NCBI GenBank assembly: GCA_005808475.1 | Contig: SYLY01000230.1 | Span: forward strand, 1-35,135 | Length of the DNA stretch: 35,135 bases | Direction: 5' to 3' | Source: Acidobacteriota bacterium | GTDB lineage: Bacteria > Acidobacteriota > Terriglobia > Bryobacterales > Bryobacteraceae | Shown: in pieces, positions 8,771 through 35,135 of the stretch | Layout of the letters: every line of letters starts with the position of its first letter | Numbering within the stretch: position 1 is the first letter of the stretch | Translations under genes and position numbers: made by a program | Notes under the pieces: generated by a model | Told to the model about the DNA's origin: nothing | Seen by the model: only the letters and a program-made list of their open reading frames with translations | Database searches by the model: none

Positions 8771-9925
8771 TTACTCCACCGCGGTCCCGATCACGATGTC
8801 GATGTTCCGGCCCTCCGGCGACATCGTCGGGTTCTGGCTGCTGCTCTTCTCTTTCTTGACGGCTTCCGGAACATTGCGTTCCAGATAGGTGAACAGCTTG
8901 GTCACCGTCGCCTCGCCTTTGCTGGCGCGCATCGCTTCCACCAGATAGTGCGTGAAAAAGCTGTTGCCGATGCGATCCGATTCCCACGACTTCTCGGTGT
9001 TCCGGCTCGAGGTGATCACCACGCGGCCCTTGCCCTGCGCGATCCGGTTCACCAACTCTTGCGAGAAGCCGAGTGACAGCGCCTTGCCTCCGCCCCTCTG
9101 CCTTACCGTGTCGCCGCTGTAGCAGGTGTCCAGGAAGGTGACCACGCGGCCGGCGCGCATCCTGTCATCCACTACCCGCTTCATCTCGTCCATCGGGAAC
9201 GCGGTTGCGTATAGGTTCTGGACGTCGGTCTCGTGCGTGACGATATAGCCGGTCTGCCCGGTGGCCGAAGCAGCGTCCGCTTCCGCCGAGGTTCCGTGCG
9301 AACTGATGTAGATGACCACCAAGTCCTCGGCGCGCGCCCGCTTGGCGATATCATTGAGCGCGGTCTTCAGGTTCTCGACGGTGGCGTCTTTGTCCAGCAG
9401 GACGCGGACATGGACGCCGTCGCGGCGAAACCGTCCGACAGCGGGATCCTCGAGCATGTCGGCGAAGTCGCGCGCGTCCTTGGCCGCGTACTTGAGCGCC
9501 GGAATCCGTTCGGTGTCGCGGAATGTACCTACTCCCACTACCAAAGCCCACTTCTCCCGCACGAACGACTTGTCCTCGATCACGGACTCGCCGGGCTTGG
9601 CGGCCGCCGCCGGTTTCGGCGAATCCGGCTGCTTGTAGACCAGCGGCTTCGGAGCCAGCCGTTCGGCGTACTTACGATAGAACTCCGCGTTGCCGGCGTC
9701 GCCCATCGCCTGATAGACATCGGAGATCGCGCTCATCACGGCAAAGCTGGTGACGCACTCGGCCTTGGCCTGATCGATCCACTTCTTGGCGGCCGCGTGG
9801 TCGCCGCCCGCCTGCGCGAGTTTCGCCCGCTCCACCGTCAGCAGAGCTCGCGACGTGCAGGCCTGGCCCTGGGCCCGCGGGACCGAGGCCGCCAACCACA
9901 ACGCGAGGAACGCCAGATACCACAT
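8771..9925 (-). CDS. Exported caspase-family (C14) cysteine peptidase
   Basis: A 384-residue protein with an N-terminal signal peptide (about 1-20). A helical TPR-like segment with LTVERAKLAQAGGDHAAAKKW follows at about 25-95, then a linker. The caspase-like domain occupies 124-384. Catalytic His210 is in YISSHG and Cys268 in FLDTCYSG, with Asp266 two residues before the Cys as in metacaspases. Later SSRNTEKSWE and FFTHYLVEAM fit the family. It presumably cleaves after basic residues if metacaspase-like; this is family knowledge, not shown here. The ATG at 9925 is 6 bp after the preceding stop. The short distances on both sides argue for co-transcription with the TPR and DUF4384 genes. Confidence 0.9.
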   Translation of the reverse strand: MWYLAFLALWLAASVPRAQGQACTSRALLTVERAKLAQAGGDHAAAKKWIDQAKAECVTSFAVMSAISDVYQAMGDAGNAEFYRKYAERLAPKPLVYKQPDSPKPAAAAKPGESVIEDKSFVREKWALVVGVGTFRDTERIPALKYAAKDARDFADMLEDPAVGRFRRDGVHVRVLLDKDATVENLKTALNDIAKRARAEDLVVIYISSHGTSAEADAASATGQTGYIVTHETDVQNLYATAFPMDEMKRVVDDRMRAGRVVTFLDTCYSGDTVRQRGGGKALSLGFSQELVNRIAQGKGRVVITSSRNTEKSWESDRIGNSFFTHYLVEAMRASKGEATVTKLFTYLERNVPEAVKKEKSSSQNPTMSPEGRNIDIVIGTAVE

Positions 9926-23936: not shown

Positions 23937-24161
23937 TCACTCGGTCGAAGCTCTAGCAGCCCGTGGTGCAAGTAGCATGAGTCGCGTTGCGAGCGCCGCC
24001 GCAACCCACTGGGCGCATTGGACTTGCAACGCAGGCTCCGCGCATTGGCGTTTGCCGCCCATGGCCGCCGCCGCGGCCATGGCATGGTTGCGCGCGGCCC
24101 CTACCTGCACCACGGGCTGCTGGGCCAGTACGTCGGTTGCCTCGAGGGGGACCTGCCTCAT
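23937..24161 (-). CDS. Small hypothetical ORF, coupled to the 83-aa gene
   Basis: A 74-residue frame whose ATG overlaps the stop of the preceding small gene as ATGA. It is Ala-, Gln- and Val-rich (EATDVLAQQPVVQVGAARN, MAAAAAMGG) with two Cys in QCAEPALQVQC. Third-position GC is high over most of the length but drops toward the end. I recognise no family. The overlap and codon pattern favour a real gene; composition alone does not prove it. It is the last gene of the S8 protease run. Confidence 0.45.
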   Translation of the reverse strand: MRQVPLEATDVLAQQPVVQVGAARNHAMAAAAAMGGKRQCAEPALQVQCAQWVAAALATRLMLLAPRAARASTE

Positions 24162-24409
24162 TCGAAGGGCGTGTCGATCTTCTCCCAGTCGGCTGACTTG
24201 CGGAGAGTCTTGATCTGGGCCTTCGCGTCGGCCTCCTCCAAGGTCTCGCCGCGCAGGGTCGGCCCCACGCGGGTGAGTTGGAGCCGGATCACCGTGTAAT
24301 AGAGCGTCTTCCGCGCCTGGGGAAACATTGTTTTGGTTCCGAGGTTGGCGACGTAGTAACTCACGTCTTCCCCGGACCGCGTATTAAGGAACCGTGCGGC
24401 GAACTTCAT
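24158..24409 (-). CDS. Small hypothetical protein in the S8 protease run
   Basis: An 83-residue, polar, mostly charged protein (MKFAARFLNTRSGEDVSYYV at the start, ADAKAQIKTLRKSADWEKID near the end). It has no signal peptide or membrane segment. A GGGGGA-type ribosome site lies just before the ATG at 24409. It follows the 59-residue gene after 12 bp and overlaps the next one. No family is recognised. Confidence 0.65.
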   Translation of the reverse strand: MKFAARFLNTRSGEDVSYYVANLGTKTMFPQARKTLYYTVIRLQLTRVGPTLRGETLEEADAKAQIKTLRKSADWEKIDTPFE

Positions 24410-24421
24410 TTGTCTTTCCCC

Positions 24422-24601
24422 CTATTTGACTGGCGGCGGGGCCGCGGACGCCGTTCCACCACCCGCCGCCTCGATCGCGGCAATCAACCACGCCGGAGGC
24501 CCGCCCGCGTCCGCCGCCGCGGGGGCGGGTGCGGCCTGCCCCTGCGCGGATTCGGCGCGGGGCGCCGCGCCGTCCTGGTCGATGTCAATCGTAATTCTCA
24601 T
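24422..24601 (-). CDS. Small Ala/Pro/Gly-rich peptide gene
   Basis: A 59-residue ORF. It has a strand-like N-terminus, MRITIDIDQDG, then an Ala/Pro/Gly-rich tail containing AGGPPAWLIAAIEAAGGG and ending PPPVK. GAGGAG lies at normal spacing before the ATG at 24601, which supports translation. It could be a linker-type or secreted peptide or an assembly factor for the protease. There are no modification enzymes nearby to support a RiPP precursor. No family is recognised. Confidence 0.6.
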   Translation of the reverse strand: MRITIDIDQDGAAPRAESAQGQAAPAPAAADAGGPPAWLIAAIEAAGGGTASAAPPPVK

Positions 24602-24612
24602 CGTGACTCCTC

Positions 24613-24867
24613 TCAGTTGACGACCGCGTAGCGGGCTTCCACGGTTACCTGCTCGCCGGTCAGATTCCGGACGCTGATCCAGTATTGTACGTGCTCCTCG
24701 GACAACCGCTGCACTTCCACGGTCCATTCGATCTGCGCCACCGCGGCGGCCGGCGCTGTGGGTATCACGGTCCACACGACATTCCAGTCCTTGGGCCACC
24801 CTGGCGCGAACCACCGCCTCACCGAATTGGCGTCCACGGTCGCGGTGAAGTGAGAAGCGACTCTCAT
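24613..24867 (-). CDS. Free-standing copy of the S8 protease C-terminal domain
   Basis: An 84-residue protein that aligns without gaps to the last 78 residues of the upstream S8 protease, with about half the positions identical by eye. Shared stretches include WF.P.WP..W.VVWTV, VQR and the EAR.AV end. The domain is Trp-rich and beta-strand-like, so it is probably a small beta-sandwich that binds a partner or polymer. A strong AGGAGG ribosome site precedes the ATG at 24867. It starts 8 bp after the protease stop. The longer frame reaching to 25605 lies antiparallel in frame with the protease gene and is not real. Confidence 0.85.
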   Translation of the reverse strand: MRVASHFTATVDANSVRRWFAPGWPKDWNVVWTVIPTAPAAAVAQIEWTVEVQRLSEEHVQYWISVRNLTGEQVTVEARYAVVN

Positions 24868-24875
24868 GATGCCTC

Positions 24876-26639
24876 CTACCAGCCCATCACGGCGAAGCGG
24901 GCTTCGAACTCGACCGGCTGATTCGACAGATTGGTGACGTGGATGTGATAGGTAACCAGCGCGTCCGTCTGCCGCTGCACCTGGACCTTCCAGGTGATCT
25001 GGGCCTGCTGCGCGAGCGGACTCCGCGGAACCACGGTCCAGACGACGTGCCAATGGGCAGGCCAACTGGGAGTGAACCACGATCTGGTCTCGTTGGCCGG
25101 AACGGAATTGCTGAATTGGACTCCGTTCCATTGCCGCTGGTCGGTGACGGAGGCGATGAGTTGGCGAAGGTTGGGCCGGTTGCCGATCCGTTGGGTGAGC
25201 GGCGCGGCGTCGGACGCCTGTTGCGGAGAACCGGTTTCGCGCAACAGCGCCCGCGCCCGCGCGGGAGTCAGCGGAATGCGGCCCTGCGCGCGGAGCACGC
25301 CCTGAACGCAGCCGAGCGTCCCCACCACGATGGGCGAAGCACTCGAGGTTCCGGCGAAGGTATCGGTGTACCAGACGTCTTCGTTGGCGCCACCTTGCAG
25401 ATCGCCCGCGGTGGAATGACGGCCTCCGGTTGTCGTCACTTCCTGGCCCCAGCCTTGGACGTCGATCAAGGCGCCCCAGTTGGAGAAGCCGAGCCGCGAA
25501 CGGTCCGGACCGTGGTCGTTGCCATGCGTACCCGGCGGCGGCGCTCCCGCGCCGACCAGGATCGCGCCGGAATCGCGGTTCGCCCGGCGGAACGGATTCT
25601 TCCACGAGGCCGGGAAGCCGGTTGCCGCCGTCTCGTAAACCGCCGCGTCGAGATCCTCGGCTCCGTTGCCAGCCGCTTCCACCACGACGATGCCCTTACC
25701 GATGGCATAGCGGATTGCGTCGAAGTCGTCCGGCCACCACTCTATGGCGATGAACCCGGTCTGGTTGGCGTTGCTCGCGAAATTGAAGCGCGGACCCGGA
25801 CGGTGCAGTTCGAGCAGCATCACATCGCCGGGCCGCAACAGGTCCGCCCCCTGCCGGATCGCGGCCGCGGATCCGAGTCCGCCGAAGATCGAGATGGCGC
25901 GCGTATGGGCGTTCGGACAGATGCCGGTCACCCCGATCGAGTTCACGTCGGCTCCGAATACACCCACGACGGCGGTTCCGTGATTTCGCCAGCCAAGATC
26001 GGGGCTTGGAGTGCCGCCAACCACGCCGCCCTGGTTCTGTGCCAGATCCTCATGGGTGAACCGCCAAGCGCCTTCTATGTCGATGATCTGGACGTTGTCT
26101 CCGCGCCCGCCCGCGACAGTCCACGCGAAACGCGCGTCGACTCCGCCAGGCGCCGCGTCCAGGTAAAGCTGGCGCGCGGTGAAGTCGGACGTATTGGGCG
26201 GAGCCACGTTGGGCGCGGCCTGCGCCGTCACGATTCCGGGCTGCGAAACCCAAAACGGCGGATAGCTCGGAGGCTTGATGTAGGCGCCTTCGACGGTGCT
26301 CTCGTTGAGGATCGCCTGCCGGATCCCCTCCAGCATCTCCTCCGGGGCTCGAACCTTGTAGTACAGCGCCATCTCGAGCGGACCCGCGTCCGGAGACGCT
26401 GATTCGACGCTCTCGGCGCGCCGCGCGATACGGTCCTCGCTGAGTCCGAAGAGCGGGACCAGTTCGAACCCCCGCTCCGCGCACAGCGTCTCGAGCGACT
26501 TCGTATTGGCGCCAGTGGCGGACTCGATGGAGGGTCCGGAAACCCGCAGCCCCGCCTGTTTCTTGGCGACCACCACCAACTCCTGCTCGCCAGGAAACAA
26601 GTTGAAGCCGTTATTGTCTGACCTTCGCCGCGTCGCCAT
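24876..26639 (-). CDS. Subtilisin-like (S8) serine protease
   Basis: A 587-residue S8 peptidase. The catalytic triad is Asp187 (VQIIDIEG), His220 (NHGTAVVG) and Ser432 (GTSSASP), with the oxyanion Asn325 in AAGNG. Residues about 50-130 look like an I9-type propeptide (YYKVRAPEEML, then VEGAYIKPPSYPPF). Residues 505-587 form a C-terminal Trp-rich beta domain that also exists as a separate gene just downstream. No signal peptide is seen (MATRRRSDNNGF...), unusual for a subtilisin; it may act inside the cell or be exported by another route. GGGGAGG precedes the ATG at 26639. The upstream 78-residue gene resembles its propeptide end. Confidence 0.93.
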   Translation of the reverse strand: MATRRRSDNNGFNLFPGEQELVVVAKKQAGLRVSGPSIESATGANTKSLETLCAERGFELVPLFGLSEDRIARRAESVESASPDAGPLEMALYYKVRAPEEMLEGIRQAILNESTVEGAYIKPPSYPPFWVSQPGIVTAQAAPNVAPPNTSDFTARQLYLDAAPGGVDARFAWTVAGGRGDNVQIIDIEGAWRFTHEDLAQNQGGVVGGTPSPDLGWRNHGTAVVGVFGADVNSIGVTGICPNAHTRAISIFGGLGSAAAIRQGADLLRPGDVMLLELHRPGPRFNFASNANQTGFIAIEWWPDDFDAIRYAIGKGIVVVEAAGNGAEDLDAAVYETAATGFPASWKNPFRRANRDSGAILVGAGAPPPGTHGNDHGPDRSRLGFSNWGALIDVQGWGQEVTTTGGRHSTAGDLQGGANEDVWYTDTFAGTSSASPIVVGTLGCVQGVLRAQGRIPLTPARARALLRETGSPQQASDAAPLTQRIGNRPNLRQLIASVTDQRQWNGVQFSNSVPANETRSWFTPSWPAHWHVVWTVVPRSPLAQQAQITWKVQVQRQTDALVTYHIHVTNLSNQPVEFEARFAVMGW

Positions 26640-26695
26640 GAGGTTCCTCCCCGGATGGATGTCTCACCGGGGTAGTGACGCCTCGGCCGGCGTCC

Positions 26696-26707
26696 GTTTC
26701 ACGAAAC
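26696..26707. promoter_or_regulatory. Inverted repeat upstream of the S8 protease gene
   Basis: GTTTC-AC-GAAAC lies 57 bp upstream of the protease start. On the minus strand it reads into GTGAAACGG, a 9-mer that also occurs in the inverted repeat between the two divergent large genes near 33.84 kb. It may be a binding site for a common regulator; this is inference from two sites. Confidence 0.35.
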
Positions 26708-26718
26708 ACGAACAATCT

Positions 26719-26955
26719 TCAGAACGGGGCGAAATCCGCTGGTTTGGTGTATGCCGCCTCGACGCCCGCTTCGGTCCGTACGCGCTGGGCTGCTTCCTCC
26801 GCCTCGGCGTCGCCAACCTCCGCCGTGAAGTACTTGCGCAATCCCGCGTCGGAGGTCCCCGGATGCATCGCCTTCAACGGCGCTCCCAGCTTGCGTGAAA
26901 GGCTCGCGAGCCGTTTGCCGCCGCTTTCCGCGTCGAGAATCAAAATCACTTGCAT
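26719..26955 (-). CDS. Free-standing I9 propeptide/inhibitor-like protein
   Basis: A 78-residue protein. Its C-terminal half matches the propeptide-like region of the adjacent S8 protease: VEAAYTKPADFAPF here against VEGAYIKPPSYPPF there. The preceding SDAGLRKYFTAEV also corresponds to SPDAGPLEMALYYKV. Stand-alone I9 domains act as subtilisin inhibitors or folding helpers, a plausible role here. The start is the ATG at 26955 (MQVILILDAESGG); only a weak ribosome site is seen. It lies 79 bp upstream of the protease gene on the same strand and is divergent from the 748-residue gene, 31 bp away. Confidence 0.75.
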   Translation of the reverse strand: MQVILILDAESGGKRLASLSRKLGAPLKAMHPGTSDAGLRKYFTAEVGDAEAEEAAQRVRTEAGVEAAYTKPADFAPF

Positions 26956-26986
26956 CGTTTTATCGCCTGGAATCACTATAGAACAT

Positions 26987-29233
26987 ATGCTCGATCTCTC
27001 CAGGCCGATTGACTCCACGGGGGGGCTGGCGCTGTTCGCGGACCACGAGAACCCTGACCTCGTCTACTATCTTCCCGACGAAATCGGTCTGGCCCAGTTG
27101 GGCGCCGGTGAACCGGACCTCTCCCTGCAAGTGTTCTACCCGGACGACGCGCTGGTAGGCGGTACGGCGGCGCTGGACAAAGCGGTGGGGTCTATATTCA
27201 CATTGGGCGTGCAATGCAGCGTGCGGCCGGACCGCCTCGCTGACGCGCGCGCCGCGCTTGCGGGGCGCCTGGGACGCACGGGCCTCCAGCTCGTGGCGCC
27301 GCCGTGGGAGGACGGCAGCGTGGACCTGATCCTGCTCGACGCCAAGGCCGGCGAGACTGTCGATACGGCCATTCGCGACGACCGGATGGTCCGGGGCGTC
27401 GTGGGGAGCCGAAAGCCGTCGCTCTCTGGCGGCGAACTGAACGCCTTCTTTCACGCGCGCCTGGACCAACGCGGATCGGCGCTTCTCGTCGCGGCCATGG
27501 AGGGCGAGGCCGGCTCGCTCGCCGGCGTGCTCTACGATCTGAAGTTCGCGGCGCTGCGGCCCGCGGTGAATCTGGTGATGCGCGCCAACCTGGACAGCGT
27601 CGCCGAGTCGATCCGCGCCGGACTTGGGGTGCAGGTCTACTACGTGAGCGCCGACGTCCAGACCGCTTTCCACAAGATGCGCGAGAAGGGCGTCATCCAG
27701 GTGGACCTCGTCAGTCAGGTCGCCGATCCGGAAGCCGAACGGCTCGTCAACGAGAGCGTCCGCGACTTCTACGACGTGCTGATGCGCGAGTTGTTCAAAC
27801 CCTCCGTTCCGGCGCTCGATGCCGCGTCGCTCGGGCTGGGCGCCGTGTCCACGTCGATCGTGAAGCTGTCGTTCAGCTACTCGAAGACTACCCGGTCGCG
27901 CGTGGTGGAGGTCGACTACCGGAAGCGCTCGGCGACAAGGCGAACTCACAATCCGCAACGCCACGTCCGTTTCCTCGCGGGCGACGCGGGCGGAGCGGCC
28001 GCGCGCACCAGGCGCGTGGCGCTCTCGCGGGCCTGGCGCGAGATGACGGTGGAGGTTGCCGCGCCCGAGGCGTTCCCGCGCCACCCCGCGTTGCGCGAGA
28101 TCCGCGTGGTGCTGTGGCGGGGCAAGGACCCGGTGCTTTCGCCCGCCCAGGCCCGCGATGGCGGACTCCGAATGCCCGCGGAATCCGTGCCGCTGCGGGA
28201 GTTCGCCTTCACCGCGCAGGATCACCAGCCGCGCCAGCTCTCCTGGGTCAACATGCCGGGCGAGGCGCCGTTCTATCGCTGGCAGGCCCGGCTGACCTAT
28301 GCGCAGGCCAGTGACACGCAGTCGCCCACCGCGCTTTGGACCGCGCCGCATGTCTCGAGTTCGGTGGACCTCGATCTCTTCCCCGAGATCCTGTGCCCGG
28401 TCCACCGCGCCGCGCTTACCCTCGGCGCGGGAATCGACGGACTCGACAGTGTCGAGGCGCACGTGACCGCGCATGATCCGGCGGGCCGGCTGGCTGGTGA
28501 GAGGCGCATCACCGCGACGCCGGCGGAGCCGAAGGCCGGGTGGAACCTGCGGACCTCCGAGGAGGAACGGATCCTCATGCAGTACGCGCTGACCTACCGG
28601 TTCAAGGACGGCCGAACCCTGACGCCGGCGACTCGGGACGCACAGGGCGAGATCGTGGTCAACAGTCCGTTCCTGAAGCGGATCAAGGTCTCCCCGTTGG
28701 TCGTGGGCGCTTCGCCCGCCGTGCTCGAGGTGACGCTCATACTGACGCACAAGGATCCGGCCTCGGGCTACGAAGCGCGGTCCGTCGCGCGCCTGCGTCC
28801 GCCGAATTTCGAGGCGCCGGACCTCGAAGTCGCCGTGCCGCGCCTGACTGGGCTCGCGCAGTGGGAGACGCTGGTGGTGCGCGCCGATGGATCCGTGACG
28901 CCACTCCGCAAGGGGGAGACCGAGGGCGGGACGCTGGTGATCCGTCCGGACGGCGAGGCGCGCCGGGTGCGCGTCGAATGGCTTGGTCCAGCGCCCGCCG
29001 CGCTCGGGCTACGCAAGGTCACGGTGACGTTGCGCGCGCGCAAGGACGATGGCCAGTTGGCGGGCGACCCCGTGCTGTTCGAATACCGCGGCGAACGCGT
29101 GGTGGAGGAGCAGTCCGCCGTTCTGCCCGCCCAGGGACAGCTTCAGTTCTCCGTCGAGAAGCGGTTCGACGACGGACGCAAGGAGACCGCGCCGTTCCAG
29201 CCGGTGCAGGGCGATCTCGTCACGGTTCCCTGA
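26987..29233 (+). CDS. Large paralogue 1 (P1) of the DHxxPxxFYYLP family
   Basis: A 748-residue protein of a family I cannot name. It shares the following with the genes at 29297, 31539 and 33916: an N-terminal block FADHENPDLVYYLP (17-30), a strand pair near 68-80, and KPSLSGGELNAFFHARL (143 on). It also shares a helical region with GVIQVDLVSQVAD and VLMRELFKPS. The C-terminal half (about 330-748) is built of beta-rich, Ig-like segments, including THKDPASGYEA (about 587) and RVRVEWLGPAPAALGLRKVTV. No signal peptide or membrane segment. The ATG at 26987 fits the family N-terminus (ML...), but no ribosome site precedes it and TATAGA lies only 3 bp upstream, so a leaderless transcript is possible. 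Upstream frame to 26675 is not credible. Confidence 0.85.
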   Translation: MLDLSRPIDSTGGLALFADHENPDLVYYLPDEIGLAQLGAGEPDLSLQVFYPDDALVGGTAALDKAVGSIFTLGVQCSVRPDRLADARAALAGRLGRTGLQLVAPPWEDGSVDLILLDAKAGETVDTAIRDDRMVRGVVGSRKPSLSGGELNAFFHARLDQRGSALLVAAMEGEAGSLAGVLYDLKFAALRPAVNLVMRANLDSVAESIRAGLGVQVYYVSADVQTAFHKMREKGVIQVDLVSQVADPEAERLVNESVRDFYDVLMRELFKPSVPALDAASLGLGAVSTSIVKLSFSYSKTTRSRVVEVDYRKRSATRRTHNPQRHVRFLAGDAGGAAARTRRVALSRAWREMTVEVAAPEAFPRHPALREIRVVLWRGKDPVLSPAQARDGGLRMPAESVPLREFAFTAQDHQPRQLSWVNMPGEAPFYRWQARLTYAQASDTQSPTALWTAPHVSSSVDLDLFPEILCPVHRAALTLGAGIDGLDSVEAHVTAHDPAGRLAGERRITATPAEPKAGWNLRTSEEERILMQYALTYRFKDGRTLTPATRDAQGEIVVNSPFLKRIKVSPLVVGASPAVLEVTLILTHKDPASGYEARSVARLRPPNFEAPDLEVAVPRLTGLAQWETLVVRADGSVTPLRKGETEGGTLVIRPDGEARRVRVEWLGPAPAALGLRKVTVTLRARKDDGQLAGDPVLFEYRGERVVEEQSAVLPAQGQLQFSVEKRFDDGRKETAPFQPVQGDLVTVP

Positions 29234-29296: not shown

Positions 29297-31516
29297 CTAC
29301 CATGCGTCCGCTGGCAGCGTCACTTCCAGGTCGTCCGCACCGCTTACCGCTTCCCTGGCAATGAAGCGCTCGCCGTTTTTGCCGAGCGCGCGAAGCTTGT
29401 AGCGGAAGTCGGCCTGAGCCGGATTGGGGAATGGGTGGAGCCAATCCTGCACGGCGCCGTCCGCGCGGAACTCGAGCGACGTCTGGGCCGCAATCTGGTT
29501 CGGCGCGTCCGCATAGGTGAGGTCGACCGTGACCTTGCGCACCCCCAGCGCGTCGAAGCGCGGGGCCAGCAGCTTGACGCGGACACGCCGCTCGGCGCGT
29601 GGAGGCTCGCGCAACGCAACCACCGGACCCGTGAGATCGGTCCACGGACCGCGAATCAACGAGCCGTCTCGCCCGGCTCGCGTAAGCCGCGCTTCCGCCT
29701 TCTGGGGCGTATCCAGGCTCGTGTCGAAACGCAGCGTCTGGATCACGGCGTCCTTCGTGAACTTCTTCTCGTCGCGCAACCACGTCCTACGGACCGTGTC
29801 CCACACCCGCAACTCGGCGAACATCGCATCCACCAGCGTCCAATCCGCTACCGCGCGCAACTCCATGGACCAGACGCGGGCGTACGGATTCATGATCCGG
29901 TGAACCGGCGGCTCGAGTCTCGCGAAGGCGCGCGTGAGGTCGGGCTCGTTGGTCTTGCGGAACGTCTCCGCGCCGCGGAACGAGACCGGGGCGCCTTCGG
30001 GAATCACCACCGCGACGGTCCGCGACGGGTTCTGCTTGTCGAAGTCGAGGTGGAATTTGCGCGGCGCGATGGACGGCGACAGCGCTTCGATCTCCATCGC
30101 CACGCGGACCTGCTGATCGAAGATGCGCGCGTCATCCACCTCGACGCGCAGTTCCTCGGTGTCCAGCCATTCCTCGGCGTGGAACCAGACGCGTCCTCCC
30201 TCGACGGGACGCCAGTCGAACGGGAACTTCTCGCGTCCACCGGGCGCCCGCGCCGGATCGAGGATCATGTCCGCGCGAAACTGGAGTTTGGCGTCCGCCG
30301 TCCCGCGACGCCGGTATTGCAGCACCTTGTTCTCTCCGGGCTTCAGCACCAGCGTCGTATCGAGCAACGGTTCTCCGCCCGCCGGAACCGCGTCGGCGCG
30401 GACCTGAATCACCACGTTCTTCACGCCAACGCCGCCCGATTCAGCCGAGACCTCGACAGGGATCTCTTCGAGGCGGTTCGGAAGGCTGTCGATCGACACC
30501 CACTTGAGCCGCTCCCGGACTCCGCCCGCGCGGCGGATCATTCCGGAAAGCGTCGACTGCGGGAAGTACGGGTAGCTCCGCACCTTCTGTTCGCGGACAT
30601 CGATCGTCGCCGTCGTAAGTTCGGACTGGTTCACGGTCCGCAAGCTGTGATGAACGCCGATCGCGACGGAAGTCAGCACGTCGCGAACGCCCTTCCCAAT
30701 GCGTTCCTCGACAGGAACATCGCCCATGGCGCGTGGATTCTCGAACAACTTCTGAATCACTTCCTTGCGCAGTTCGTCGAACATCGCCCGTGTGGCCGAG
30801 CTTTTCGCTTCGGGGTCGAGCTCGGTCACCTGAATCTCGATCGCGCTGGTCCGGCGCAAGGATTCGACGGTACTGTCTATCTCGTCGCTGAAGAAGACGA
30901 AATTGGACCGGTCGACTTCGCGGAAGCGGGCGTAGACCTGCTTCCAATCCACCCGCATCTGCGCCTGAAACGCCGGGCTGAGGCCGTGGAACTCCAGTTC
31001 GTAGGCGACCACGGCGGCGAAGTCGTCCACCGTCAGGGCCGCGGCCAGCGCCTGTCCTTCGAAGCCTTGGGCCGCCACGGCGTAGGCTGCGCGGTTGGCG
31101 CCAATCAGGGAGGGCGGAAATCCCTCCCAAACGAAGAAGTCCTTCTCGGGCTGGGCGGCATTGGGCCGGGCCACGATCAGCTTCGCCTTGCCGCTGTGCA
31201 AGGGCGCGGGAACGACGCGCTTGGGCGCCTGGCCGGTCCGCTTCTCGAGTTCCTCGGCTAGCTTGACTAGCAGCGCCGGCGGCGGCGCCAGGTGCACGTC
31301 GAAGCTGACTTGCAGGCGCGAGACCTGTTCGGCCCGCTGGCCGGGAGCGCCGCCTTGCGCCGGGGGAAGGATCGCGGTGGCGAAGAAGGCGGGTGCGCCG
31401 CCTTCCACGACGAACTCGGGGATCGAATAGATGTAGTAGAACGTCAGGGGATCGGCGTGATCGGGGAAAGCGGTCAGCCCATCCACCATCAGAAATGGCG
31501 GCCGGTAAAGCAGCAT
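29297..31516 (-). CDS. Large paralogue 2 (P2) of the DHxxPxxFYYLP family
   Basis: A 739-residue relative of P1, P3 and P4. The N-terminal block is FPDHADPLTFYYIY (17-30); PPSLIGANRAAYAV follows at 134-147. A helical part has FSDEIDSTVESLRRTSAIEIQV and VIQKLFENP. The C-terminal beta-rich region includes RVRVKLLAPRFDALGVRKVTVDL, which matches the end of P1. No signal peptide. GGAG lies before the ATG at 31516. It starts 22 bp after the P3 stop and is probably co-transcribed with it; it converges on P1. No family function is known to me. Confidence 0.85.
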   Translation of the reverse strand: MLLYRPPFLMVDGLTAFPDHADPLTFYYIYSIPEFVVEGGAPAFFATAILPPAQGGAPGQRAEQVSRLQVSFDVHLAPPPALLVKLAEELEKRTGQAPKRVVPAPLHSGKAKLIVARPNAAQPEKDFFVWEGFPPSLIGANRAAYAVAAQGFEGQALAAALTVDDFAAVVAYELEFHGLSPAFQAQMRVDWKQVYARFREVDRSNFVFFSDEIDSTVESLRRTSAIEIQVTELDPEAKSSATRAMFDELRKEVIQKLFENPRAMGDVPVEERIGKGVRDVLTSVAIGVHHSLRTVNQSELTTATIDVREQKVRSYPYFPQSTLSGMIRRAGGVRERLKWVSIDSLPNRLEEIPVEVSAESGGVGVKNVVIQVRADAVPAGGEPLLDTTLVLKPGENKVLQYRRRGTADAKLQFRADMILDPARAPGGREKFPFDWRPVEGGRVWFHAEEWLDTEELRVEVDDARIFDQQVRVAMEIEALSPSIAPRKFHLDFDKQNPSRTVAVVIPEGAPVSFRGAETFRKTNEPDLTRAFARLEPPVHRIMNPYARVWSMELRAVADWTLVDAMFAELRVWDTVRRTWLRDEKKFTKDAVIQTLRFDTSLDTPQKAEARLTRAGRDGSLIRGPWTDLTGPVVALREPPRAERRVRVKLLAPRFDALGVRKVTVDLTYADAPNQIAAQTSLEFRADGAVQDWLHPFPNPAQADFRYKLRALGKNGERFIAREAVSGADDLEVTLPADAW

Positions 31517-31538: not shown

Positions 31539-33818
31539 CTAGGCGGGCGGACTCAGAATCAGATTCTGTCCGCTCCTTTCCGCTTCCGCGACCTGGACCT
31601 CGGTTCCGTCTGGCCGGAAGAGCGTCAGGGCCACGGCGTAGCGTTCGTGAGTCCGGTCCACGCGCGGAATGAGCCAGACGGCGTTGCGGGCTTGGGGCGT
31701 CAGAAAGTACTCCTGGCTCACCGAGTCACGCTGGCCTGGGTAGTCGTACCGCAGCTTGACCAGCGCCTCGGAAAACTGTTGACCGAGCTTCAACCTGTCG
31801 GTCCGCAGCGTCACGGCGAGCACCGGGAGGATGATCTCCTGGTCGCCCTCCGCCGCGGTCCACGGGCACACCGCGATCTGGTCGGCCGTGTGGAGTTGAT
31901 AACGGTAGCGGAACTTCTGGTTGGCGCGGTTGGCCTGGACGACATTGGTCTTGCCCTCCCACTCGCCCTCTTTATCGAGCGAAATCTCGGCGTCGCTCTC
32001 GAACCCGCTGGCCGGGTCCTTGTGCTGAATCTGCACGACCGCCTTGGTGAGGCCAGGCAGATTGGCCGCGCACCGCGCCGAGATCCGAAGCGCGTCCGGC
32101 CACGGCGAAGGCAGTTCGACCAGCGTTTCCTCGCCGGGGCGGACCCAGACCGTCCGCTCCGGACCGGCGAGCGCCGCCGCGTTCGAACGCAGATACGTGG
32201 GCCGCAGGATCACCGGCGCGTCCACCGGCAGTCCGGTCTTATGCGCCACGATCACCCCCGTGAGGTCTTCCTTGCGCACCACGACGCTTCCGGCGGTATG
32301 GTCCTTCGCCCCCGGGGCCTTGTACGAGTAGTCGAACTGAATGCCCGAGATCGCGGCGGATCCCGTTCCGGCGAACGTGTCCGGATGCGCCCGGGCCTTG
32401 AAGGCGAACTTGCCGAGTTGCGGGACTTGGATATGGACGGCGCCGTTGCTCTCGCCCTTGGCGACTTCGACGGGTTTCGCGACGCCTTCGATGAACGCCT
32501 CCGCGCGGTAGTGGACCAGCCCGCGGTCGCGTGGCGGACGCCGCCATCGCACCGTCTCCGACGATTTCGTGGAATCGAACAGAATCTCGGTACGGGCATT
32601 GTCGCCGCCGCCGGGGTAGCCGACAAAAACCCGGACCTTGGTGATCTTCGGATCTCCGGTCCACGGCGCGTCGACGGAAACGGGAACCGAGAGGGTGGCG
32701 ACGATCGGATCGGACAGGTCCACCAGCGTGATGAGTTGCTTGCGCTTGCTGGAGTCGAGGCCGCCCAGGAAGCTGGTGATGGTGGCCTGCGGATTCGCGC
32801 CCCATTCGATCACGTCGCGCTGCGTCATTCGCAGTTCCGCGAACGAGGTGACCTCTTCCTCCACCTTGGTGATCAACGATCGCTTTCGCTCCTCCTCGGT
32901 GAGGCCCCGAATCCGGCTCGTGATCACCTGTTTGATGCGGTCGGAGATGAGGTTCAGCGCGGCATTGCGAAGTTGCGCCACGTGCTCGTCGCTGATCTTG
33001 GCCGAGCCCTTGATGATGTCGATGTTGATGAGCCCCTCCTCCGTTAGCTTCTCCGAGATTTCACCGACATCGATGTTCTCCACGTCGGCGTCGCTGCATC
33101 CCTGGTCGCGGTTTTCGACGGTCCGCGTCACCTTGCGCGTGAGATCGAGCTTCTGATGCGAGCCCGCCCAAACGTGGATCTGCAGGCTGGGCAATCGCGC
33201 CTGGAACTTCAGTTCGTACCGCACGGAGATCGCGGTTGCGTCCTGTTCCAGCGCGCGAAACCAGACGGCCGCGCCCTCCGCGTTCAGCCGCAGCGAGAAG
33301 GCAGCGTTGTTGCTTCCAATCAGGCTGGGCGGTCCGCCGGCCGAAGACCATTCGACGAAGCCTCCGGTTGCACGCTCCAGCAGGACCACGTTGCCGCCGA
33401 GGTACTGGATGGACCCGAGGCGCGGTGCGCGGATCTCCGGCGTTCGCACGGTGACGCTGTTCGGATCCTGGCCGCGCACCCGCGCCAGCCGCGTCAGCCG
33501 CTCCTTTTCCGCCGCCGCGATCGCATCGGCGCGCTGTTGCTGCACGCCCGAATCGCGGATCTTGTTGAGCAGGTCCTTCTCCTCCGGCTCGGTGAGCGCC
33601 ATATTGACGTCGAAGTTCAATTGCGCGCCCCGGACTCCGGCCACGGAGCCGGCCGCGCCGTCGGCGGCGTCGGTCCAGAACAGTCCCCGGAAGACCGGCT
33701 TGCCCTGCTCCATCCGTAGACGTGGCACGCTGGGCAGGGCGTAGAAGAGGTTCGGATCCTCGTCGTCCGGAAACACGACCGTGTCGCGGTGGGTGAAAGT
33801 CTCGGGAAAAGTGAGCAT
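31539..33818 (-). CDS. Large paralogue 3 (P3) of the DHxxPxxFYYLP family
   Basis: A 759-residue member. The N-terminal block is FPDDEDPNLFYALP (16-29), followed by LNFDVNMAL and PPSLIGSNNAAFSLRL (163-178). A charged helical insert rich in Glu, Lys and Arg lies near 75-125. A helical region with ISEKLTEEGLINIDII matches the same position in the relatives. The C-terminal beta-rich part has IQHKDPASGFES near 597, colinear with HKDPASGYEA in P1. No signal peptide. The ribosome site is weak. It is the first gene of the P3-P2 pair and is divergent from P4, 97 bp away, across a perfect inverted repeat. Confidence 0.85.
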   Translation of the reverse strand: MLTFPETFTHRDTVVFPDDEDPNLFYALPSVPRLRMEQGKPVFRGLFWTDAADGAAGSVAGVRGAQLNFDVNMALTEPEEKDLLNKIRDSGVQQQRADAIAAAEKERLTRLARVRGQDPNSVTVRTPEIRAPRLGSIQYLGGNVVLLERATGGFVEWSSAGGPPSLIGSNNAAFSLRLNAEGAAVWFRALEQDATAISVRYELKFQARLPSLQIHVWAGSHQKLDLTRKVTRTVENRDQGCSDADVENIDVGEISEKLTEEGLINIDIIKGSAKISDEHVAQLRNAALNLISDRIKQVITSRIRGLTEEERKRSLITKVEEEVTSFAELRMTQRDVIEWGANPQATITSFLGGLDSSKRKQLITLVDLSDPIVATLSVPVSVDAPWTGDPKITKVRVFVGYPGGGDNARTEILFDSTKSSETVRWRRPPRDRGLVHYRAEAFIEGVAKPVEVAKGESNGAVHIQVPQLGKFAFKARAHPDTFAGTGSAAISGIQFDYSYKAPGAKDHTAGSVVVRKEDLTGVIVAHKTGLPVDAPVILRPTYLRSNAAALAGPERTVWVRPGEETLVELPSPWPDALRISARCAANLPGLTKAVVQIQHKDPASGFESDAEISLDKEGEWEGKTNVVQANRANQKFRYRYQLHTADQIAVCPWTAAEGDQEIILPVLAVTLRTDRLKLGQQFSEALVKLRYDYPGQRDSVSQEYFLTPQARNAVWLIPRVDRTHERYAVALTLFRPDGTEVQVAEAERSGQNLILSPPA

Positions 33819-33872: not shown

Positions 33873-33915
33873 CCTTTAGAATTCGCCGGACAGACCGGCT
33901 ATTGGAGGAACGTTC

Positions 33916-35135
33916 ATGCTCACCCTCGAGCCGCCGCAATACACCGTCCGCGGCGTCACCATTTTCCGGGATCACGCCAATCCCCGCCAGTTCTACTATC
34001 TGCCGTACGACAAGGCGCGGGTTTCGGAACAGGGTAAGGGACTGTCCTTCGTCGTGTACACCGAGGACATCACCGGAGAGCCGAACTTCTCGCTCGGAGA
34101 CGACAGGGCGGGCGGATTCCTGACGCTCGAGACCGAACTCGGACCGTCGCCCGAGGAAGTGGAGAATCAGATCAAGCCGGCGCTCGAGGCGGTCGCGGGC
34201 GTGGGTGGCATTTCGCTCGCACAGGTCCCCTTTACCGATGGGACGGTGACGCTCTACGTGTTGAGCCAGTCCGGCGCCGCGACCGGCGCGGCGAACGGGT
34301 TCCAGGTGAGCGCCGCCGGTTCGACCAAGCCGTCGCTGTTCGGACGCCAGACCGCCGTGTTCTCGGCCCGGCTCGGCGGCAAGGCGGCCAACCTCCTTTA
34401 TGAAACGCTGCGCCGCAACGCCGATCCACAGGCGGTGGTCTGCTACACGCTGCAGTTCCTGGCGTTGCGTCCGGCCTACGGATTGAAGATCGAGATCGAT
34501 TTCAAGGAGACGTTCAGCTACGTGCGTCACCGGGTCGGGCTCAACCTCCTCATCGCGCAGGCCGACTTCGACCTGCTCACGCAGGAGATGATCAACTCGG
34601 GCAGCATCAAAATCGAAGAGATCGACTTTACGGGGAAGGCAACCGACTCGGGTTCCAAGCTGATCGGCGAGGGCGGCGTGCTGAAGCTGGTCCGCGATCT
34701 GATGAGCCAGACGCTGTTCAATCCGATGCCGGTACCCACGCCGGACTACCGCGCGCTGCCGGACAGCGCGTCCAACGCGCTCAACACCGCGAGCGGAACG
34801 AAGCAGTTCCTCTCCACCGGAGGCGAAGACGGCGGTTCGCGAAACGCGGTTACGGTGGGGACGCGGATCAAACTCACGCACACTCCGCTCGGCGGCGGAA
34901 TCGAGGCGGGCAAGGAGATGTCTGTCACCGCTAAGGTCGAGGCCGGATCGGGAGTGACGCTTGGTAGCGTGAAGGTGTTCTTCCGGACCGGCCAGAGCGG
35001 CGCGTTTCAAGAGTTGCCGATGACCGTCGGAGGCGCGGCGGGTGGCGGAGGCGTCGCGGGCGGCGGAGGCGTCGCAGGTGGCGGAGGCGCGGCAGGTGGC
35101 GGGGGTGCGGCAGGCGGCGGAGACGCGGCAGGCGG
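33916..35135 (+). CDS. Large paralogue 4 (P4) of the DHxxPxxFYYLP family (partial)
   Basis: At least 406 residues; runs off the right edge. The N-terminal block is FRDHANPRQFYYLP (17-30), in register with P1. GGFLTLETELG follows, then KPSLFGRQTAVFSARLGG (138-155). YTLQFLALRPAYGLKIEIDF precedes a helical part with MINSGSIKIEEIDFTG and LMSQTLFNP. From about residue 376 it enters a Gly-rich hexapeptide repeat. No signal peptide. GGAGG lies seven bases before the ATG at 33916. Its N-terminal half is the cleanest example of the family in the window. The C-terminal half is unseen, so comparison with the Ig-like ends of P1-P3 is not possible. Confidence 0.85.
   Translation, partial: MLTLEPPQYTVRGVTIFRDHANPRQFYYLPYDKARVSEQGKGLSFVVYTEDITGEPNFSLGDDRAGGFLTLETELGPSPEEVENQIKPALEAVAGVGGISLAQVPFTDGTVTLYVLSQSGAATGAANGFQVSAAGSTKPSLFGRQTAVFSARLGGKAANLLYETLRRNADPQAVVCYTLQFLALRPAYGLKIEIDFKETFSYVRHRVGLNLLIAQADFDLLTQEMINSGSIKIEEIDFTGKATDSGSKLIGEGGVLKLVRDLMSQTLFNPMPVPTPDYRALPDSASNALNTASGTKQFLSTGGEDGGSRNAVTVGTRIKLTHTPLGGGIEAGKEMSVTAKVEAGSGVTLGSVKVFFRTGQSGAFQELPMTVGGAAGGGGVAGGGGVAGGGGAAGGGGAAGGGDAAG
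35041..35135 (+). repeat. 18-bp tandem repeat encoding Gly-rich hexapeptides
   Basis: Five consecutive 18-bp units (35041-35130) plus the start of another encode GGGGVA, GGGGVA, GGGGAA, GGGGAA and GGGDAA in the P4 frame. The array reaches the window edge. It is probably a flexible linker and a slippage-prone site. Confidence 0.9.

Follow-up and report, generated by a model that had tools for sequence, protein, structure and literature searches.

Why should a subtilase be flanked by separately encoded copies of both of its own ends? This question is raised by a 35,135-nucleotide (nt) stretch of DNA (contig SYLY01000230.1, hereafter the window) from an Acidobacteriota bacterium, in which an S8 subtilase with an N-terminal domain (N-domain) and a C-terminal domain (CTD) lies between p78, a gene resembling the former, and p84, a gene resembling the latter, with a small peptide gene, p59, following. 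By combining gene order across comparable loci, profile searches, and structural models, we propose a four-gene cluster in which p78 would inhibit the protease in trans, and p84 and p59 would form a docking module acting through the CTD, a proposal for which our confidence is evenly balanced.

Coordinates are window positions unless a locus is named, and the four genes lie on the minus strand in the order p78, protease, p84, p59 (Table 1). The window p84 starts 8 nt past the protease stop, and p59, preceded by a GAGGAG stretch, starts 11 nt past the p84 stop. The original prediction had described a protease with its two ends duplicated as neighbouring genes; these three genes were found as described on the minus strand, and the set extends past p84 to p59 as a fourth member.

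Conservation of this arrangement was surveyed in 24 loci, comprising the window, 4 of 17 plasmid records matched by the protease, and all 19 loci drawn from genome contigs (L011 to L029). The CTD was present in nine of them: the window, Haloferax (L007), Holophagales (L011), Armatimonadetes (L012), Terriglobia (L013), Saprospiraceae (L015), Methanotrichaceae (L018), Lunatibacter (L022), and Chelatococcus (L023). A p84 gene follows the protease in seven of these nine (not in L013 or L015) and in none of the 15 loci without the CTD, where the protease strand alone was searched and three chance-level hits (E-value (E) 0.11 or worse) were seen. The p59 profile detected its gene in 8 of 9 CTD loci, the same eight from which it was built, and in 0 of 15 others; the p59 of L007 was assigned by position, start, and motif. 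A separate upstream p78 was found in 11 of the 24 (the window, L012, L013, L014, L018, L020, L022, L023, L026, L027, and L028) using a profile of eight sequences that excluded the locus under test, the L023 copy lying at a contig edge; none was found in nine other loci, and the search of L015 and L029 was limited by contig ends. All four genes occur together in five loci (the window, L012, L018, L022, and L023), and the assemblies concerned, besides the window's, are labelled Armatimonadetes, Bacteroidota, Pseudomonadota, and archaeon. Spacing in the seven p84 loci is 8-75 nt between protease and p84 and 9-23 nt between p84 and p59, and where p78 is present in these loci it lies 36-79 nt from the first ATG of the protease, except in L023 (346 nt). 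Clustering of open reading frames (ORFs) of 60 residues or more revealed no further gene common to the CTD loci as a group; two ORFs, one of ABC type (found near L007 and within the window) and one of caspase type (L018 and the window), are each shared by a pair of these loci.

Among the 19 genomes behind L011-L029, seven contain the CTD, five of these seven an adjacent p84, and 12 neither. Searches of further genome sets with p84 profile A6 gave matches in 1 of 396, 0 of 339 (a set with no positive control), 2 of 344, 1 of 299, and 1 of 296 genomes, in all of which part of the first-look candidates were scored, and in 1 of 43, 1 of 99, and 1 of 50. The positives were confined to the window's own genome, centre genomes already known, and one further genome (G1041), and the set is therefore sparse. 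Carriage by phages or plasmids was considered and rejected: neither p84 in the phages and viral contigs searched nor CTD-bearing protease relatives in viral contigs were found, p84 occurs in one plasmid record (Haloferax), and four phage records hold distant S8 relatives.

The likeness of p84 to the protease C-terminus, already noted in the original prediction, was borne out over 77 gap-free columns at 50.6% identity, with an alignment score of 213, the highest of 2000 shuffles scoring 63. Six strands are predicted for the CTD (DSSP of the protease model) and six for p84, whose model has a predicted local distance difference test score (pLDDT) of 93.8, and the two are predicted to have a common six-strand beta fold. 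As for the decoy or targeting module suggested in the original prediction, p84 is a free CTD paralogue that accompanies p59 and is also seen with a second enzyme type, and either role would be a candidate. Comparison with Tk-SP, KP-43, and PPC-type domains, covering the families that VIA-align lists, gave weak fold matches. No Pfam family matched p84. Within the window's own genome, which is 77% complete, p84 has a single confident relative, the protease CTD, with three further matches at E 0.026-0.49. Homologous short-protein clusters number 2057, short by design because the search admits proteins of approximately 46-147 residues only, and 119 of the best 120 are 83-85 residues long. In alignments of 62 and 60 rows, 13 and 14 residues, respectively, are invariant. 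The p84 and CTD families have most of their conserved positions in common and differ at the end, which is GW in 41 of 45 CTD rows and LN in 46 of 60 p84 rows. A tree of 16 domains parts p84 from the CTD class with weak support (42/97), the bootstrap being unsettled. Mean p84-CTD identity is 63% within a locus (7 pairs) versus 55% between loci (42 pairs); the window pair stands at only 46%, and the window p84 is divergent. We read these patterns, from a small sample, as a putative old split whose two halves have been kept in step within loci. By eye, one 123-residue protein (P0063) contains two p84-type domains in tandem, one partial and one complete.

The p59 gene, of 59 codons, begins MRITID and carries DAGGPPAWLIAAI. 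In the six other p84 loci an ORF starts 9-23 nt after the p84 stop with M(R/S)(I/V) and contains related DAG/NGG motifs, and in L013 and L015, which have the CTD and no p84, a motif gene lies downstream of the protease, that of L015 without the usual start. A profile built from eight of these genes (all but that of L007) retrieved 95 protein clusters at E up to 0.01 from 7994 scored candidates. The motif, in a pattern written after the family had been seen, occurs in 88 of the 95 (two hits in 28, one in 60, and none in 7). Searched with the profile, each of eight genomes gave a single strong match, next to its CTD gene, at E 1.2e-27 to 4.4e-10; two of these matches span a stop codon, and no other hit fell under E 0.15. 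When the 95 p59 clusters were set against the best 120 of the 2057 p84 clusters in a large protein database, 13 pairs agreed in source and in the exact length of the carrying contig, compared to a mean of 0.8 and a maximum of 2 with shifted lengths. A first version of the motif pattern missed L007 and L023, both of which were caught in a later reading. It also hit two ORFs in L020 and L028, loci without the CTD, that are long, lie away from the protease, and are missed by the p59 profile; they were counted as chance. Whether the DAG motif at the C-terminus of p59 goes with the presence of p84, a gene that L013 and L015 lack, was also considered and set aside, two loci being too few and the window an exception.

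Is the set tied to proteases? In G1041, a genome recovered in an archaeal phylum search, the CTD forms the end of a 439-residue protein (locus L045) that matches protein-glutaminase PF18626 (E 4.6e-31; 107.6 bits against a cut-off of 25) and scores 113.8 against NCBIfam NF040782, under the cut-off of 250. Its match to the protein-glutaminase of PDB 3a54 reaches E 2e-31, and it differs from that enzyme in carrying the CTD and in being followed by p84 and then by a gene that starts MKITIQ and contains DAGPAP and DCGEAP. We assign this last gene, by position, start, and motif, as p59-like. An unclassified ORF downstream of it (L045 2-781, minus strand) runs off the retrieved stretch of that locus and has no Pfam match. 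Thus the CTD, its stand-alone counterpart, and the peptide gene are found together with two enzyme types, the second in one genome, and the presence of the set with a glutaminase in an archaeon suggests that the module moves between enzymes.

The protease itself matches PF00082 (E 2.2e-11; 44.1 bits against a curated cut-off of 21.8), the only Pfam family found in it, and none was found for the CTD. Residues D187, H220, N325, and S432 are invariant in 45 aligned rows, and by their sequence motifs we take them to be the Asp-His-Ser triad and the oxyanion Asn. No signal peptide is visible. From residue 19-20 onward the protease model aligns with unprocessed pro-subtilisins, with the N-domain at the position of their propeptide and a low-confidence linker (residues 132-140) after it, and the N-domain is thus predicted to take the place of a propeptide. 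In two Paenibacillus loci (L010 6552-8131 and L024 5600-6100), the N-domain is missing from the protease ORF and is encoded by an ORF of its own upstream, an arrangement that appears to be a natural split between pro-domain and enzyme.

The relation of p78 to this propeptide-like region, the other likeness put forward in the original prediction, is weak by single sequence and clear by profile. The stretches quoted there, VEAAYTKPADFAPF and VEGAYIKPPSYPPF, are present and identical at 8 of 14 positions by eye. Single-sequence alignment of p78 with the N-domain gives 27.8% identity over 54 positions (E 0.008) and a score of 64; among 2000 shuffles none equalled this score when the whole protease was the target, and one did when the target was its first 150 residues. 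Profile-profile alignment with hhalign, covering 92 columns, gives 98.1% and E 1.3e-13. The final residue of p78 aligns with protease residue 129, directly before the low-confidence stretch, an end that would suit a product-like tail. A single-sequence search of 61 relatives recovered the window's own p78 alone at E up to 0.01; it also missed the protease's own N-domain, which shows the search to be insensitive. No Pfam family, inhibitor I9 or subtilisin propeptide included, matched p78 at E up to 0.1. Of the claim that p78 is a dedicated inhibitor, its homology to a domain in the pro-subtilisin propeptide position and its end ahead of the linker stood up; the inhibition itself we infer. Because the protease model matches unprocessed pro-subtilisins, p78 is likely a trans-acting propeptide-type inhibitor, which would be of a known kind.

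Family libraries gave no name to the small genes: window p78, p84, and p59 have no match above cut-off in Pfam, NCBIfam, or PADLOC, and the PADLOC anti-phage defence models matched none of eight proteins, including these three and the protease, at E up to 0.1. It is important to note that the window p59 query in these searches was shifted by one codon. Matches below cut-off were TatA for window p78 (E 0.079), ACT_4 for p78 of L018 and L014, CysS_C for p78 of L012, and YukD and DUF6958 for p59 of L022.

In the mechanism that we propose, p78 would act as a product-like competitive inhibitor able to hold the protease once its own propeptide has been lost. The CTD and p84 would be paired copies binding the Asp-Ala-Gly-x-Pro-Pro-x-Trp-Leu motifs of p59, such that p59 would gather or park the enzyme and p84 would compete with or complete that assembly. 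That p84 docks with p59 is something we infer, and such docking would be compatible with the conserved aromatics of the domain and with the Pro/Trp-rich character of the motif. A broader reading, to which we give somewhat less than an even chance, is that the CTD, p84, and p59 constitute a portable docking system, with a jelly-roll handle on different enzymes (subtilase and protein-glutaminase), a free handle, and a disordered peptide serving as scaffold, with Asp-Ala-Gly-Pro-Pro-Trp-Leu motifs that would clip the handles together, the whole spread sparsely between bacteria and archaea by horizontal transfer.

Alternatively, p59 may be a substrate or product precursor that is docked via the CTD and p84, trimmed (or deamidated, in the glutaminase locus), and released as a peptide. 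Its short, low-complexity, motif-bearing character (two hits in 28 and one in 60 of the 95 clusters), its place at the end of the cluster, and its single strong match in each of the eight genomes would all suit such a role, which we nonetheless consider unlikely: the CTD loci as a group have no additional gene family in common, and the similar motif and start in protease and glutaminase loci fit docking better than one shared reaction. Docking is preferred because the two enzymes have the motif peptide and the handle in common. Somewhat less doubtful, though still improbable, is that p84 serves as a chaperone or stabilising subunit, a heterodimer with the CTD rigidifying the enzyme as the jelly-roll domain of CspB does and p59 acting as a flexible clamp; yet p84 is missing from two of the nine CTD loci, the fold matches are weak, and the CTD-p84 pairing is putative.

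A further possibility concerns p78, which could be a foldase in trans, an intermolecular chaperone instead of an inhibitor. Subtilase propeptides are described as folding chaperones in PMC6993865, and in the two Paenibacillus loci an N-domain that is apparently a separate ORF would work in trans; the window protease, however, keeps its own N-domain and would not need a second foldase, and we judge this role a poor prospect. That the flanking genes are idle duplicates of the protease ends without function would accord with the divergence of the window p84, yet the uniform length of the p84 clusters (119 of the best 120 at 83-85 residues), the 13 residues invariant in 62 rows and 14 in 60, and the same gene order across phyla already disfavour it and leave it very improbable.

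Table 1. Positions of the cluster genes, protease domains, and large paralogous proteins in the window.
Feature	Position	Strand	Basis
p78 (78 aa), stand-alone N-domain copy	26719..26955, coding 26722-26955, stop 26719-26721	-	N-domain profile match
S8 subtilase, 587 aa	24876..26639, coding 24879-26639	-	Pfam PF00082
Protease N-domain, residues ~19-130, predicted propeptide	26250..26585	-	model vs unprocessed pro-subtilisins
Protease catalytic domain, residues ~150-500	25140..26192	-	
Protease CTD, residues ~501-587	24879..25139	-	model DSSP; p84 paralogy
p84 (84 aa), stand-alone CTD copy	24613..24867, coding 24616-24867	-	homologous short-protein clusters
p59 (59 aa), low-complexity peptide with motif DAGGPPAWLIAAI	24422..24601, coding 24425-24601	-	profile relatives
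Large paralogous protein	26987-29233 (26642-29230 by ORF clustering)	+	
Large paralogous protein	29297-31516	-	
Large paralogous protein	31539-33818	-	
Large paralogous protein	33880 to window end (33880-35133 in the paralogue comparison)	+	

Beyond the cluster, the window encodes large proteins with N-termini like FPDHADPLTFYY, of which those at 29300-31516, 31542-33818, and 33880-35133 are mutually paralogous and a further member (26642-29230) was added by ORF clustering; no Pfam match was found for the first three in Table 1. The likely start of the first of these lies 31 nt from that of p78, on the opposite strand. Binding to these proteins, a check proposed for p84 in the original prediction, gained no backing: searches with p78 and p84 over all window ORFs of 35 residues or more hit none of the large paralogues at E up to 0.5, direct comparison with the three at 29300-31516, 31542-33818, and 33880-35133 gave a best p78 match of E 0.04 with p84 matching the CTD only, and as candidate partners they were rejected, having no relatives in other loci at E up to 1e-6. 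An 83-residue ORF (24158-24409, minus strand) begins 12 nt after the p59 stop, and since it has no family match in the libraries searched and no relative in other loci by ORF clustering, it is probably outside the conserved set. A caspase-domain protein (8774-9925, minus strand; PF00656, E 4.8e-22) has a relative near the Methanotrichaceae cluster (L018 4677-5828). More proteases, of matrixin/astacin type or S8, lie near the protease in L012 (1314-2210), L022 (9001-10179), L011 (3661-5775), and L016 (8577-9872).

Stand-alone propeptide-like inhibitors are an established kind, and those named in PMC6993865 are eukaryotic. One of them, the Plasmodium protein SUB1-ProM, is encoded next to subtilase genes and acts as an inhibitor of SUB1 (PMC6993865). 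The separate propeptide of pernisine is described as a tight and selective inhibitor of its enzyme (PMC10580911). Like SUB1-ProM, p78 is a small separate product resembling a subtilase propeptide and adjoins a subtilase gene. It differs in being bacterial and archaeal, in lying beside a subtilase without a visible signal peptide, in its homology by sequence to the N-domain of its own neighbour enzyme, and in that its inhibition is predicted. Subtilases with a jelly-roll domain are also on record, namely Tk-SP (3afg, 9ues) and Clostridium CspB (PMC3567191). In contrast to these, the domain described here is also encoded on its own, accompanied by a gene for a motif-bearing partner, and is found on a second enzyme as well. 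No title or abstract start in the literature searched dealt with p84, p59, or the cluster. The protease and the concept of a separate propeptide are known; the novelty lies in the combination of a handle, its free form, and a motif peptide.

In p78 we have a predicted stand-alone propeptide-type inhibitor beside a prokaryotic subtilase without a visible signal peptide, resembling that enzyme's own N-domain. More importantly, the CTD, p84, and p59 recur together, match no named family in the searched libraries, and are seen in both bacteria and archaea and with two unrelated types of enzyme. Should docking be confirmed, nature would here have a modular means of recruiting protein-modifying enzymes to a peptide scaffold, which would also indicate a role for some of the approximately two thousand small-protein clusters that match p84.
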